DNA of 42,101 bases, from positions 1 to 42,101 of the forward strand of contig CAIKGD010000022.1 in NCBI GenBank assembly GCA_903826865.1, read 5' to 3'. This document shows positions 5,100 through 11,577 of the stretch, piece after piece (positions within the stretch are counted from its first letter, which is position 1; each line of letters starts with the position of its first letter). A model generated the notes under the pieces. The model had not been told where the DNA came from and did not search any database. It saw nothing but the letters and a program-made list of their open reading frames with translations. The stretch comes from an uncultured Verrucomicrobiota bacterium (GTDB lineage: Bacteria; Verrucomicrobiota; Kiritimatiellia; Kiritimatiellales; Tichowtungiaceae). The translations under genes were made by a program, and so were the position numbers.

Positions 5100-8000
5100 A
5101 TGAAAAAAGCAGAATTTCAAAAAAGTTTTCCGGCACCGCAGGGGTTATATAATCCGGAAAACGAGCATGATGCCTGCGGGGTAGGCTTTATTTGCAACCT
5201 GCACGGAACAAAATCGCATGACATCATTCATCACGCTCTTGAAATTCTGGTGCGCCTCACTCATCGCGGAGCTTGCGGCTGCGACCCTTTAACCGGTGAC
5301 GGAGCCGGCATTCTCCTCCAGATTCCCCATGCTTTTTATAAAAAGGAATGCATCAAGATCGGCATTACGCTTCCTGCCGAGCAGGAATACGGTACTGGAC
5401 TGGTTTTTATGCCGCAGGATGAAGACCAGCGGAAAGCCTGCATCGAAATGCTCGAACAGGCGATCAAAGAAGAAGGACAGAAACTGATCGGCTGGCGCAA
5501 GGTGCCGACCTGTAATCGTCTTATCGGCGAAACCGCCCGCGCTTCCGAGCCTTGTATTATGCAGGTGTTCATCGGACGCGGCAAAGGAGTCACCGACCCC
5601 CGCACCTTCGACCGCATGCTCTACATCATTCGCAAGGTCGCTGAAAACCGGATTTTTCACTCCGGCCTGAAAGACAAAAACGACTTTTATATCCCGACGC
5701 TCACCTGCCGTATTATTATCTATAAGGGACTGCTTCTTCCCGAGCAGATGGAATTCTACTATCCCGACCTGCTGGACGAGGATTTCACCAGCGCGCTCGC
5801 GCTGGTGCACCAGCGCTACAGCACCAACACTTTTCCGGCGTGGAAACTTGCCCAACCGTTCCATGTGCTTTGCCACAACGGCGAAATCAATACGCTGCGC
5901 GGAAACTTTAACTGGATGAATGCGCGGCAGGGGCTTTTGAAATCGAGACTCTTCGGCGAAAACATTGAACGGCTTTTCCCGATCATTCAACCGGGGCTTT
6001 CCGACTCCGCCTCGCTTGACCAGGCTGTTGAGCTGCTCTATCACGGCGGACGATCCCTGCCGCATATCATGAGTATGCTTATTCCCGAAGCATGGCAGAA
6101 TCACAAGACCATGAGCGCCGAGAAAAAAGCGTTCTACGAATATCACTCTTGTCTGATGGAGCCGTGGGACGGGCCGGCCTCTATTCCTTTCACCGACGGC
6201 ACCTGTCTTGGCGCCATCCTCGACCGCAACGGCCTGCGTCCCTCGCGTTACATCGTCACAAAAGACGGTTACGTCATCATGGGATCTGAAACCGGCATTA
6301 TGGATATTGACCCGGCCAACGTGGAGCGCAAAGGCCGCCTCGAACCGGGCCGTATGTTCCTCGTGGATATGGAAAAGGGCCGCATTGTGCCTGACGAAGA
6401 GATCAAACGCGAGATCGCCGCCGGGCAACCGTACGGCAAGTGGCTCAACGAAAATCTTATTCCGCTTTCCGGCCTGCCGCCGGAAGAGGCTTCCGGATGC
6501 GATCCGGAAACTCTGCTGCAGCGTGAGCGCATGTTCGGCTATACGATGGAAGACCTGAGCCAGATTCTCGCACCGATGGCCAAAGAAGGTGCGGAGCCGA
6601 GCGGTTCGATGGGCATTGACACCCCGCTGGCCGTGCTCGCCGAAAAACCTCAGTTGCTTTACAACTACTTCAAGCAGCTCTTTGCTCAGGTCACCAACCC
6701 GCCGCTCGATGCCATCCGCGAAGAACTGGTTACTTCGCTCATCACCAACATCGGTGCCGAACAGGATCTTTTCGCGGAAACTCCGAAGCATTGCAACCAG
6801 CTTAAACTTGATCAGCCGATTATCACCAACGACGAACTTGCCCGCATACGCAAACTCAACCGCGATAATCTGAAATCCATTACGCTGCCGATGCTTTACA
6901 AGGTTGCTGCGGGCGGCGAAGGACTGCAGGCCGCACTCGAAAAACTGTGTGCGGATGCTTCGCAGGCGATTGAGTCCGGCTACACTCTGCTGATTCTTTC
7001 CGACCGGCAGGCCGATCAGGAAAACGCGCCGATCCCGGCGCTGCTGGCAACCGCCGCCGTTCACCATCATTTGATCAGCAAACTTCAGCGCACCCGCTGC
7101 GGATTGATTGTCGAAAGCGGCGAGCCGCGCGAAGTGCACCACTTCGCCCTGCTGATCGGCTACGGCGCCGGCGCCGTCAATCCCTACATGGTTGGCCAGA
7201 TTCTGGATGATATGATCAAGCAGGATCTGCTTACCGGCATTGAATGGAAGCCTGCCGCCAAAAATTTTGTCAAAGCCATCAACAAGGGGCTGCTTAAAGT
7301 AATGTCCAAGATGGGCATCTCCACGCTGCACAGTTACCGCGGCGCGCAGATATTTGAAGCGGTCGGCCTGAACAACGAAGTCATTGATGCCTATTTCGCC
7401 GGCACCGCCTCGCGCATCGGCGGCATCGGCCTCGACGGTATCGCCCGCGAAATCAACGCGCGCCACCGGTCCGCCTTCCCGAAACGGCCGGCCGACAAAA
7501 ATCTGCCGCTCGACATCGGCGGTGCTTATAAATGGCGGCGCAACGGCGAAGAGCATCTGCTCAATCCGCTGGCCATCGCCAGACTGCAGGAAGCCGTCCG
7601 CACCGATAACGCCGACCGGTTCAAAGAATTCTCCGACCTGATTAATCACGACAACCGCGCCATCTACACGCTGCGCGGCCTCTTTGAATTCAAGAAAAAC
7701 CGCCGGCCCGTTCCGCTCAGCGAAGTCGAACCGTGGACCGCCATCGTTAAACGCTTCAAAACCGGAGCCATGTCCTACGGCTCGATCAGCCAGGAAGCGC
7801 ACGAAACGCTCGCCATCGCCATGAACCGTATCGGCGGCAAGAGCAACTGCGGCGAAGGCGGCGAAGACGAAGACCGTTTTCTGCCCGACGAAAACGGCGA
7901 CCTGCGCCGCTCGGCCATCAAACAGGTGGCTTCGGCGCGCTTCGGAGTCACGAGCAACTATCTGACCAACGCCGACGAGATTCAGATCAAGATGGCGCAG

Positions 8001-9638
8001 GGTGCCAAGCCCGGCGAAGGCGGACAGCTGCCCGGCCATAAAGTCAAACCGTGGATCGCCAAAACGCGCTATTCCACACCGTACGTGACGCTGATCTCGC
8101 CGCCGCCGCATCACGATATTTACTCCATCGAAGACCTTGCCCAGCTAATCTACGACTTGAAGAGCGCCAATCCGTCGGCACGCGTTACCGTGAAACTGGT
8201 TTCCGAAGTCGGCGTCGGCACCGTTGCAGCCGGCGTGGCCAAGGGGAAAGCCGATCTGGTGCTTATCAGCGGTTACGACGGCGGAACCGGCGCTTCGCCG
8301 CAATCCTCCATCAAGCACGCCGGTCTGCCGTGGGAGCTTGGTCTGGCCGAAGCCCAGCAAACGCTGGTGCTCAACAAACTGCGCAGCCGCATCCGCGTTG
8401 AATGCGACGGCAAACTGCTCACCGGCCGCGACGTTGCCGTCGCCGCCCTGCTGGGAGCCGAGGAATTCGGCTTCTCGACCGGGCCGCTGATCACGCTCGG
8501 CTGTATCATGATGCGCGTCTGCCACATGAACACCTGTCCTGTCGGTGTCGCTACGCAGGATCCCGAACTGCGCAAAAAATTCTGCGGCAAACCGGAATAC
8601 GTCATCAATTTCTTCCGCTTCGTTGCAGAGGAACTGCGCCAGATCATGGCTGACCTCGGATTCCGCACCATTGACGAAATGGTCGGACACGGCGAGCTGC
8701 TTGATGTCCGCGAGGCGGTGGAAAACTGGAAAGCCAAGGGGCTCGACTTCTCGAAAATCCTCTACCAGCCGCCGATGGACGACACGACCCCGCGGCGCTG
8801 CACGGAAAAACAAGCCGACGATCTGGCCGCCTCATTCGACCATGAGCTGATCCGGCAGGCGAAACCCGCGCTGGAGCGCGGCGAACGGGTGGTGATTCAT
8901 GCGCAGATTCGCAACATTCACCGTACCGTCGGGGCCATGCTCAGCCATGAAATTTCTAAACGCTACGGCGAGCGCGGCCTGCCCGATGACCGGATCACTA
9001 TTCATGCGACCGGATCGGCCGGACAAAGCTTCGGCGGATTCGGCGCGAAGGGCATCACCTTCCGCGTCACCGGCGATGCCAACGACTATTTCGGCAAAGG
9101 ACTCTCCGGCGCAAAGCTGATCATCCGGCCGCCGGAAGACGCCACTTTTATCGCGGAAGAGAACATTCTGATCGGCAACGTCGCCTTCTACGGTGCCACG
9201 CGCGGCGAAGCCTACATCCGCGGTCTGGCCGGCGAACGCTTCTGCGTACGCAACAGCGGAGTTCATGCCGTGGTGGAAGGCATCGGTGATCACGGCTGTG
9301 AATACATGACCGGCGGGAGCGTGATCGTCCTCGGTCCGACCGGCCGCAACTTCGCAGCCGGTATGAGCGGCGGTATCGCCTACGTGCTCGATGAAGCCGG
9401 CGACTTTATTGAAAACCGCTGCAATCCGGAGATGGTGGACTTCGATCCGCTCACCAACGAAGACGTCGCCACCCTGTGCGAACGTCTCGAAAAACATCTG
9501 GAATACACCGGCAGTACTGTGGCGCGGCGGCTTCTCCATAACTGGCAGAATGCCGTTAAAAAATTCGTCAAAGTCATCCCGGTGGACTACAAGCGCGCGC
9601 TCCAGCGCATCGCCGACGAGAAGAGGACGGGAGAGTAA
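5100..9638 (+). CDS. gltB: Glutamate synthase large (alpha) subunit
   Basis: Uses glutamine and 2-oxoglutarate to make two glutamates, with electrons from the GltD subunit. The 1512-residue length is normal for bacterial GltB. Cys26 in HDACGVGF is the expected Ntn amidotransferase nucleophile, exposed after removal of a 25-residue propeptide. The FMN-binding synthase domain shows [10 protein letters not shown], the 3Fe-4S ligands are Cys1135, Cys1141 and Cys1146 in the [12 protein letters not shown] block, and a glycine-rich beta-helix ends the protein. GAGG lies nine bases before the ATG. The partner gltD is 472 bases downstream, separated by an inserted small gene, so the two subunits are probably still on one transcript. 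Confidence 0.97.
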
Positions 9639-9644
9639 GGAGAA

Positions 9645-9667
9645 GGCCTGAGGCGTGAGGCTGGAGA
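9645..9667 (+). repeat. Left inverted-repeat arm of IVS-like element
   Basis: Begins six bases after the gltB stop and is built of quasi-tandem units such as GGCCTGAGGCGTGAGGC. It matches the reverse complement of 10060-10082 at 20 of 23 positions. Confidence 0.75.
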
Positions 9668-9684
9668 CTTGAGGAAGAAATAAC

Positions 9685-10032
9685 GTGAGAGATCCGCAAA
9701 AACTGAAAGCGTTTGAGCTGGCCGATAAACTGGCCGTGCAGGTTTACCAGGAAACGCGGTCTTTCCCGAAGGAAGAATTATTCGGACTGGTTTCACAAAT
9801 GCGGCGCGCGGCGGTTTCCGTCCCGTCGAATATTGCGGAAGGATGCGGAAGAACAACAGCAAAGGAATACTTGCAGTTTCTCTCAGTCGCCTACGGTTCA
9901 CTGAAAGAACTGGAATATCAGGTATCGCTCGCAGCAAAACTGAAGTTTTTAGCAAGCACATCTGAATTGGCCGCCAAGGCGGAGGAAACAGCACGAGTTT
10001 TAAATAGTTTGATTAATGCATTGAAAAAGTGA
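9685..10032 (+). CDS. Four-helix-bundle protein, 23S rRNA IVS-encoded (S23) family
   Basis: 115 residues, the usual size of the family. It starts at GTG with GAGGAAG about nine bases upstream; the first residues MRDPQKLKAFELADKL match the typical opening helix. The hallmark segment QMRRAAVSVPSNIAEGCGR (57-75) is followed by a third and fourth helix. Members are encoded in 23S rRNA intervening sequences and as stand-alone genes, and are related to the Avd protein of diversity-generating retroelements; the cellular role of the stand-alone forms is not established. No reverse transcriptase or variable repeat is nearby, so it is not part of a retroelement here. Its place between gltB and gltD is odd and points to insertion. 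Confidence 0.9.
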   Translation: MRDPQKLKAFELADKLAVQVYQETRSFPKEELFGLVSQMRRAAVSVPSNIAEGCGRTTAKEYLQFLSVAYGSLKELEYQVSLAAKLKFLASTSELAAKAEETARVLNSLINALKK

Positions 10033-10059
10033 GCAGGCGCAACCCGGTGCCGAAGAGGT

Positions 10060-10082
10060 TCTCAAGCCTCAGGCCTCAGGTC
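10060..10082 (+). repeat. Right inverted-repeat arm of IVS-like element
   Basis: Contains CTCAAGCCTCAGGCCTCAGG, made of repeated CTCAGG/CTCAAG units, and pairs with 9645-9667. A further CTCAAGCCT copy follows at 10082-10090. Confidence 0.75.
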
Positions 10083-10089
10083 TCAAGCC

Positions 10090-10106
10090 TGCCTCCTGCG
10101 GAGGCA
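10090..10106 (+). promoter_or_regulatory. Hairpin containing the gltD ribosome binding site
   Basis: TGCCTCC and GGAGGCA form a perfect 7-bp stem around TGC. The 3' arm holds the GGAGG Shine-Dalgarno sequence of gltD, whose ATG is at 10111. In free RNA the site would be covered unless ribosomes or the neighbouring stem change folding. Confidence 0.6.
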
Positions 10107-10110
10107 CAAA

Positions 10111-11577
10111 ATGGGAAAACCAACAGGTTTTAAAGAATTCGAACGCAAGACGCCGGCCGAGCGGCCGATTGTTGAACGCATCAAAGACTACAACGAAGTC
10201 TACCGTCCGTTCCCGGAAGACAAGCTTCAGGAACAGGCCGCGCGCTGCATGAACTGCGGAGTTCCCTTCTGCCATATCGGCTGTCCGCTCGGAAACATTA
10301 TCCCTGAGTGGAACGATCTGACCTACAAAGGCCACTGGAAAAAGGCCTGGGAAATTCTTTCCGCCACCAATAATTTTCCGGAATTCACCGGGCGGCTCTG
10401 TCCCGCGCCGTGCGAAGAAGCCTGCGTACTCGGCATCAACGAACCGCCGGTCACCATCGAAAATATCGAGAAGGAAATCATCGAACACGCCTTCCGTGAA
10501 GAATGGGTTTTTCCGGTGATACCCGAAACACGCACCGGCAAAACCGTCGCGGTCATCGGCTCCGGTCCGGCGGGACTGGCCGCCGCGCAGCAGCTCAACC
10601 GCGCCGGACACACCGTTACTGTTTTCGAGCGCGCTGACCGCGCCGGCGGGCTGCTTCGCTACGGCATTCCCGACTTCAAACTCGAAAAACGGGTTATTGA
10701 CCGCCGCTTGGATCTGCTGAAAGCCGAAGGCATCGTCTTTAAAACCAACGCCGCTGTTGGTACCGGTATTTCCGCCGAGGAGCTGAAACAGTTCGACGCC
10801 GTCGTGCTCGCCATCGGCTCCACCGTCGGGCGTGACATGCCGGTGCTGGGTCGCGACCTCAAAGGCATTCACTTCGCCATGGAATTTCTACCGCTGCAGA
10901 ATAAAACTTGCGCGGGTGATTATCCGGAGCCGCTCATCTCGGCTGAAGGAAAAAACGTCGTCGTCATCGGCGGCGGCGACACCGGCAGCGACTGCGTCGG
11001 CACCTCCATCCGTCACGGCGCGCGCAGTGTCGTTAACTTCGAACTTTTCCCGGAGCCGCCGGGCAGCCGTCCGGCGCACCAGCCATGGCCCTACTGGCCG
11101 ATGAAACTGCGCACCAGCTCCTCGCACCGCGAAGCGGGCGAAGATCCGCGCCGCTACTGCATGCTCACCAAAGAATTCAACGGGCAGAACGGACAGGTAA
11201 CCAGCGTGCGCACCGTCAACGTCGAATTCACCCGTGAGCGCCAGACCGGAAAATCCAATATGGAAGAGGTGCGCGGCTCGCAGAAAGACTGGCCCGCCGA
11301 CCTCGTTCTGCTGGCGCTCGGCTTCACCGGCCCGGAACGCGGCAACGCCGTCAAAGCGCTCGGTGTCGAACTCGACAAAGCGGGCAATATTAAAACCGGC
11401 AAGAACTATCAAACTTCCGTCCCGAAGGTCTTCGCCGCCGGGGACTGCCGCCGCGGACAGTCGCTCATCGTCTGGGCGATTTCCGAAGGCCGCGAAGCTG
11501 CGCGGTGCGTCGACGAGTTCCTGATGGGCGAAACCAGCCTGCCGACTCGCGGCCCGGCTGAACTGCCGCGCCGCTAA
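10111..11577 (+). CDS. gltD: Glutamate synthase small (beta) subunit
   Basis: Oxidises NADPH and passes electrons to GltB. 488 residues, normal for the subunit. The N-terminal half shows the iron-sulfur cysteines Cys46, Cys49, Cys54, Cys58 and Cys97, Cys101, Cys105. The FAD motif [14 protein letters not shown] and the NAD(P)H motif [13 protein letters not shown] follow, and the last FAD-binding segment is [17 protein letters not shown]. The start follows GGAGG within a hairpin. It lies downstream of gltB across the IVS-like insertion, so expression relative to gltB may be affected. Confidence 0.96.

Follow-up and report, generated by a model that had tools for sequence, protein, structure and literature searches.

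The insert between gltB and gltD in the DNA described here probably represents a small mobile element in which, to judge from the sequence, a single gene of the 23S rRNA intervening-sequence family (IVP gene) lies inside two inverted heptamer arrays. The window, that is the whole stretch of 42,101 nucleotides that was analysed, comprises positions 1–42,101 of contig CAIKGD010000022.1 from an uncultured Verrucomicrobiota bacterium of the Tichowtungiaceae (assembly GCA_903826865.1). Its genome of 2.64 Mb is referred to as G000.

The upstream host gene, gltB (positions 5100–9638, + strand), codes for the large subunit of glutamate synthase and was identified by its open reading frame and the Pfam domains GATase_2, Glu_syn_central, Glu_synthase and GXGXG. 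The gene for the small subunit, gltD (10111–11577, +), follows downstream and was assigned by its ORF and Pfam domains. Between them, a gene with a GTG start (9685–10032, +) encodes a four-helix-bundle protein of 115 amino acids (PF05635, 4e-33; TIGR02436, 3.2e-34). A preliminary description of this DNA had named both the family of the gene and its location inside an mRNA operon, and both are borne out, all three genes being on the + strand. The Pfam matches of the ORF are limited to PF05635 and a weak one to bAvd, with no transposase domain, and no transposase, integrase or reverse transcriptase was found within the element. The nearest solved structure is that of XCC0516 from Xanthomonas campestris (2GSC, E = 4.8e-22), itself uncharacterised in function. 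An Rfam scan of the element region gave zero matches.

In both arms of the element a degenerate heptamer, AGGCYTG, is repeated head to tail, in opposite orientation on the two sides, and the arms register as period-7 tandem arrays. The 5' arm (9644–9674, +) contains four heptamers and reads AGGCCTG AGGCGTG AGGCTGG AGACTTG AGG. The 3' arm (10059–10090, −), inverted with respect to the 5' arm, also contains four and reads AGGCTTG AGACCTG AGGCCTG AGGCTTG AG on the other strand. Both were assigned by inverted-repeat score, predicted fold and comparison with congeners. The element placed at 9645–10082 in the preliminary description is real, but that span is slightly too narrow, and the tandem heptamer structure was missing from it. 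In the predicted RNA fold of positions 9636–10112 (minimum free energy −161 kcal/mol, z = −2.6) the arms form the closing stem and pair over ~25 bp with 2–3 interruptions. The local inverted-repeat score at the IVP gene is 33, above all 200 shuffles (mean 15.6, maximum 22), in agreement with the earlier proposal of a long stem formed by the arms around the gene.

The 5' arm is preceded by GGAGA (9639–9643, +), which may be the left copy of a 5-bp target duplication; the right partner would be GGAGG (10100–10104), which coincides with the Shine-Dalgarno sequence of gltD. We grade this candidate, read from the sequence, as weak because the flanks of the empty relatives have diverged. The motif AGGAGA is present on both sides of the element in congener G008, too. 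A small hairpin recognised by congener comparison and predicted fold, GCCTCC-TGC-GGAGGC (10091–10105, +), is located behind the 3' arm, and its 3' half is the gltD Shine-Dalgarno sequence.

Ten congeners, the genome of the window counted among them, have a readable gltB-gltD junction. Six carry the element. The empty junctions that the preliminary description had proposed to look for exist in G011 and G005, where they are clean and 19–20 bp long. A 97-bp leftover without the gene is found in G002, and G009 has unrelated sequence at this position. Placed on the gltBD tree, these presence and absence labels require at least three changes. All element-bearing congeners have an equivalent of the hairpin at 10091–10105, and so does G002, but both empty junctions are without one; across the element-bearing congeners its stems are altered yet still paired. 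A role in translational control of gltD is possible.

At the gltBD site, heptamer and IVP sequence change faster than gltB and gltD. The final base of the heptamer is the same in all units of both arms, being T in G001, G003, G004 and G008, G in G000 and C in G013. Among the closest four species, the synonymous divergence of the IVP gene (0.6–0.9, as a proportion) exceeds that of gltB and gltD (0.34–0.50). The uniform last base had led us to consider concerted evolution in place; replacement of the element at this site is an equally good explanation because the synonymous divergence of the IVP gene is higher than that of its host genes. The dN/dS ratio of the IVP is 0.05–0.16 where dS was measurable; the protein is under purifying selection.

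Genes matching PF05635 are numerous in G000 (18 at E ≤ 0.001, 16 of them above the curated cut-off), and 100 of 145 genomes of the phylum contain PF05635 proteins; the phage records queried gave zero matches. Since no pair of IVPs in G000 is more than 53% identical, there was no recent burst in this genome. In G010, two IVP genes at different sites (L055 and L064) are 85% identical in protein, with saturated synonymous sites (dS 2.3).

For a broader comparison we assembled a pool of 166 unique IVP genes together with their flanking DNA. They came from the genus, from the phylum at large, from viral contigs and from 80 named genomes that span many phyla and include ANME-1 archaea. The median arm score was 29.5, compared with 15 for shuffles, 14 for cross-paired arms and 15 for control genes. 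A score of at least 30 was reached by 50% of the IVP genes but by 0.07% of the shuffles, 0.6% of the cross-paired arms and 2.5% of the control genes. The arms lie beyond 100 shuffles in 70% of the 166 genes; in ~25–30% detectable arms are missing. Strong arms have a mean lag-7 self-match of 18.3 out of 28, compared with 11.6 in distant flanks, and a minority has a period of 8. On these sequences the combination of arms and gene is a general architecture across bacteria and ANME-1 archaea.

What is conserved from element to element is the complementarity of the arms and their period, while the heptamer itself varies. It is specific to the element, shared by its own two arms and rarely matching that of another: in 45 of the 71 elements whose arms are both periodic, the partner arm is the best match among 71 candidates. 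The other IVP copies of G000 mostly follow the same design with different heptamers (for example GTTCAGG, GATGAGT, GATTGGC, CGTAATA and AAATTCT), so that a terminal inverted repeat common to these copies could be ruled out, the arms matching within an element only. The search for further copies with identical arms, as suggested in the preliminary description, therefore fails, the arms being element-specific heptamer arrays. Any influence of the protein sequence on the heptamer is weak at best (Mantel r = 0.18 overall), and even protein pairs that are more than 80% identical differ in their heptamers.

Most elements with both neighbours called (49 of 69) are located between genes and are co-directional with them. 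In an Rfam scan, none of 60 IVP loci contained 23S rRNA, and the 23S genes of the congeners G001 and G003, each with eight IVP genes, are uninterrupted; the G000 assembly contains no 23S gene. Judged by these loci, rRNA is not the usual home of IVP genes.

Several other settings were seen. Three junctions of a nucleotide-sugar operon of G001 resembling gmd-fcl-rfbDBAC (L200:5893–11050) are occupied by IVP genes or what is left of them; two of these copies are 73% identical in DNA and one is frameshifted. At L002 and L200:6167–7183 a heptamer arm apparently supplies the start codon and the N-terminal codons of the fcl-like gene downstream (MNPQTPNTQPQALG... and MEIDPQTSNSKLQTDG...). In Planctomycetes (L107 and L114) several IVP genes are located between the tRNA genes of dense arrays, on the strand opposite to the tRNAs.

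The mobility conjectured in the preliminary description is supported by exact insertions in relatives, with 5-bp duplications, as well as by the empty junctions of the congeners. The insertions come from cyanobacterial plasmids, in which sites with and without the element are 92–97% identical. Site A is filled in Trichormus 0441 and Scytonema NIES-4073. It is empty in Aulosira NIES-50 and Tolypothrix PCC 7601 (inspected, ~97% identity) and, by BLAST coverage, in four further plasmids, and a decayed copy is found there in Nostoc C052. The empty sequence AAAAAGTAATTAACAAAT corresponds to AAAAAGTAAT, the element and GTAATTAACAAAT at the filled site, i.e. to an exact insertion with duplication of the 5 bp GTAAT. 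The insertion point is the stop codon of the upstream gene. Site E is filled in L301, L307 and L308 and empty in L300; here GGTTCTAGGTTATG becomes GGTTCTA, the element and TTCTAGTTATG, and the 5 bp TTCTA are duplicated. An exact deletion at short direct repeats would leave the identical empty sequence; the wide range of empty plasmids favours insertion over precise excision.

The unrelated sites A, E and F carry elements with AGTCAGA arms whose IVPs are 78–97% identical. A clean 5-bp duplication was observed only at sites A and E, which belong to a single cyanobacterial family. Flank divergence was too great for duplications to be called at B, C, D, F, G, H and I, and at site K the duplication is ambiguous at 4–5 bp. 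The empty junctions, together with the exact insertions and their duplications, speak against the case that by the preliminary description would have refuted its reading, namely a gene and arms fixed across distant relatives without mobility. Further plasmid elements (L286, L287, L297 and L282) are found at cas6/cas4 (type I-D), cas10/cmr2-cmr3 (type III-B) and nrdB/nrdA junctions.

Copies without the ORF exist as well. Site J holds such an element of 271 bp with arms of the AGTCAGA family, which is missing from two homologous plasmids; a second one with arms of this family (site K) is located within an IVP gene of Nostoc N6. The AGGCYTG unit of the gltB-gltD element recurs in ORF-less hairpins of G000, for example one inside a helicase-like gene (G000:C50 4820–4955) and one ahead of a dehydrogenase-like gene (G000:C48 109406–109435).

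In 380 kb of G000 we counted 22 period-7 arrays, 15 of them away from IVP genes; other periods from 4 to 13 yielded 0–5 arrays each. Other IVP-bearing genomes contain 17 period-7 arrays in 580 kb (15 loose), and genomes with one to three IVP genes one in 240 kb. IVP-free genomes of the phylum contain one in 564 kb, an A-rich stretch, and a further 160 kb of one IVP-free genome none. In this small sample, with kinship ignored, loose arrays are frequent where IVP genes are numerous and hardly occur where IVP genes are missing. One codon position of the essential gene alaS is a recurrent landing site: in-frame heptamer arrays occupy it in G000, G004, G010 and G011 and are not found there in six congeners. 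Their units (L324 = G000:C41:55802–56281, L325, L326 and L329) are of the CCTCAAG, CTCAGGC, CAATCGG and GAAATCT types, two being related and AGGC-like and two unrelated. Arrays of the GGTCAGA type were also seen in Mu-like-phage-looking coding frames of G000 (L205:14751–15460, C7), where they are translated as repetitive peptides.

The loose arrays bear on another reading, in which the heptamer arrays are primary and arise from replication slippage and template switching at hairpins. The IVP gene would then be a passenger, or its product a protein of the host that binds the hairpins or keeps them in check, and no active transposition would take place. The 15 of 22 arrays without an IVP gene nearby are in line with it, as are the missing transposase and the alaS codon position, where different units in four congeners look like local generation. 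We nevertheless consider it unlikely, given that arms and gene were inserted exactly and with 5-bp duplications at two sites, that closely related units of arms and gene occupy three unrelated plasmid sites, and that arrays are nearly absent from genomes without an IVP gene.

In a further reading, which is very improbable, the insertion is fixed and regulatory: its stem and the hairpin at the Shine-Dalgarno sequence would serve to process the gltBD mRNA and to regulate gltD, and the protein would tune this by binding to its own leader. This reading would have to accommodate two congeners that lack the element, the three or more changes on the gltBD tree, the same design at dozens of unrelated junctions and a turnover of heptamer and IVP faster than that of gltB and gltD. 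The counterparts of the 10091–10105 hairpin in all element-bearing congeners, the prevalence of co-directional elements between genes and the purifying selection on the IVP count in its favour. Finally, bAvd (20 bits, cut-off 40) and DivGenRetAVD (22 bits, cut-off 80) have weak similarity to the IVP, and the Avd proteins of diversity-generating retroelements are a distantly related four-helix-bundle family. A degenerate remnant of such a retroelement, mobilised by a reverse transcriptase, is nonetheless hardly credible: a profile search found no PF00078 reverse transcriptase in G000, and the domain is present in 2 of 14 congeners as opposed to IVP genes in 14 of 14.

For the mobile element favoured here we propose the following mechanism, which taken as a whole is tentative and rather doubtful. 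The transcript or a single strand would fold into the long stem, and an oligomer of the IVP would bind the folded nucleic acid and be required for spread. A nuclease or recombinase, perhaps that of the host, would then make the insertion with a 5-bp stagger. One arm may be copied from the other by fold-back template switching, which would keep the arms alike, and register slips would alter the number and order of the heptamers. In the mRNA of an operon, RNase III may cut the stem as it does in rRNA intervening sequences (IVSs), so that insertions behind a stop codon would be tolerated. The element of the window probably landed between the gltB stop codon and the ribosome-binding site of gltD.

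The closest known systems are the 23S rRNA IVSs with an IVP/S23p ORF (Coxiella burnetii, Leptospira), which share the protein family. RNase III cleaves their stems, and in the Coxiella IVS tandem GACAGAT heptamers are situated at the cleavage site upstream of the ORF (PMC4990558). Mobility of IVSs was suggested long ago, according to a citation in that paper. The gltB-gltD element resembles them as a 0.43-kb element with terminal inverted repeats that form a long stem round an ORF, and in its patchy presence among relatives (six filled and two clean empty junctions in ten congeners). However, it sits in a protein-coding operon and outside any 16S or 23S rRNA helix; by analogy it would work like an rRNA IVS and differ from one by its location.

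Dispersed heptanucleotide repeats (cyanobacterial STRRs, GGGAATC in Xanthomonas and Nostoc, TAACTGA in Beggiatoaceae) share the 7-nt period and, in the excerpts of PMC4692102 and PMC4679880, are mainly intergenic and sometimes form inverted pairs. These excerpts describe one or few units per genome and mention no IVP gene, whereas every IVP element is built from a unit of its own and has a gene between its arms. IVP proteins are found in both Nostoc and Xanthomonas. With REPIN/RAYT and MITE/IS systems the elements have in common protein-coding copies accompanied by many short, gene-less hairpin derivatives, but they lack a transposase domain and their terminal sequences rarely match between elements. 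For comparison with IS and MITE target duplications, the length is 5 bp at the two plasmid sites, that at gltBD being a candidate only. In the open-licence literature, to which our search was confined (subscription journals were outside its scope), we found no account of the heptamer design, its generality or the duplications, and the Coxiella heptamers were the only link between heptamers and IVP genes.

PF05635 proteins, annotated as 'four helix bundle' or 'S23 ribosomal', are common yet functionally unexplained, and heptanucleotide arrays likewise lacked an explanation. The chances appear evenly balanced that PF05635 is the central factor of an unrecognised class of bacterial and archaeal mobile elements, which have ends defined by a 7-nt design and a hairpin, insert with duplication of 5 bp and use no known transposase, and that this class is the source of the dispersed heptanucleotide repeats of IVP-bearing genomes and of the ORF-bearing rRNA IVSs. 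The latter seem to be a special case, in which a more widely distributed mobile family uses rRNA as one of its landing sites. The filled and empty pairs and the resident ORF-less copies provide material for testing mobility and finding the enzyme. The data tie PF05635 genes to heptanucleotide arrays and suggest a role for the family and an origin for the 7-base repeats.
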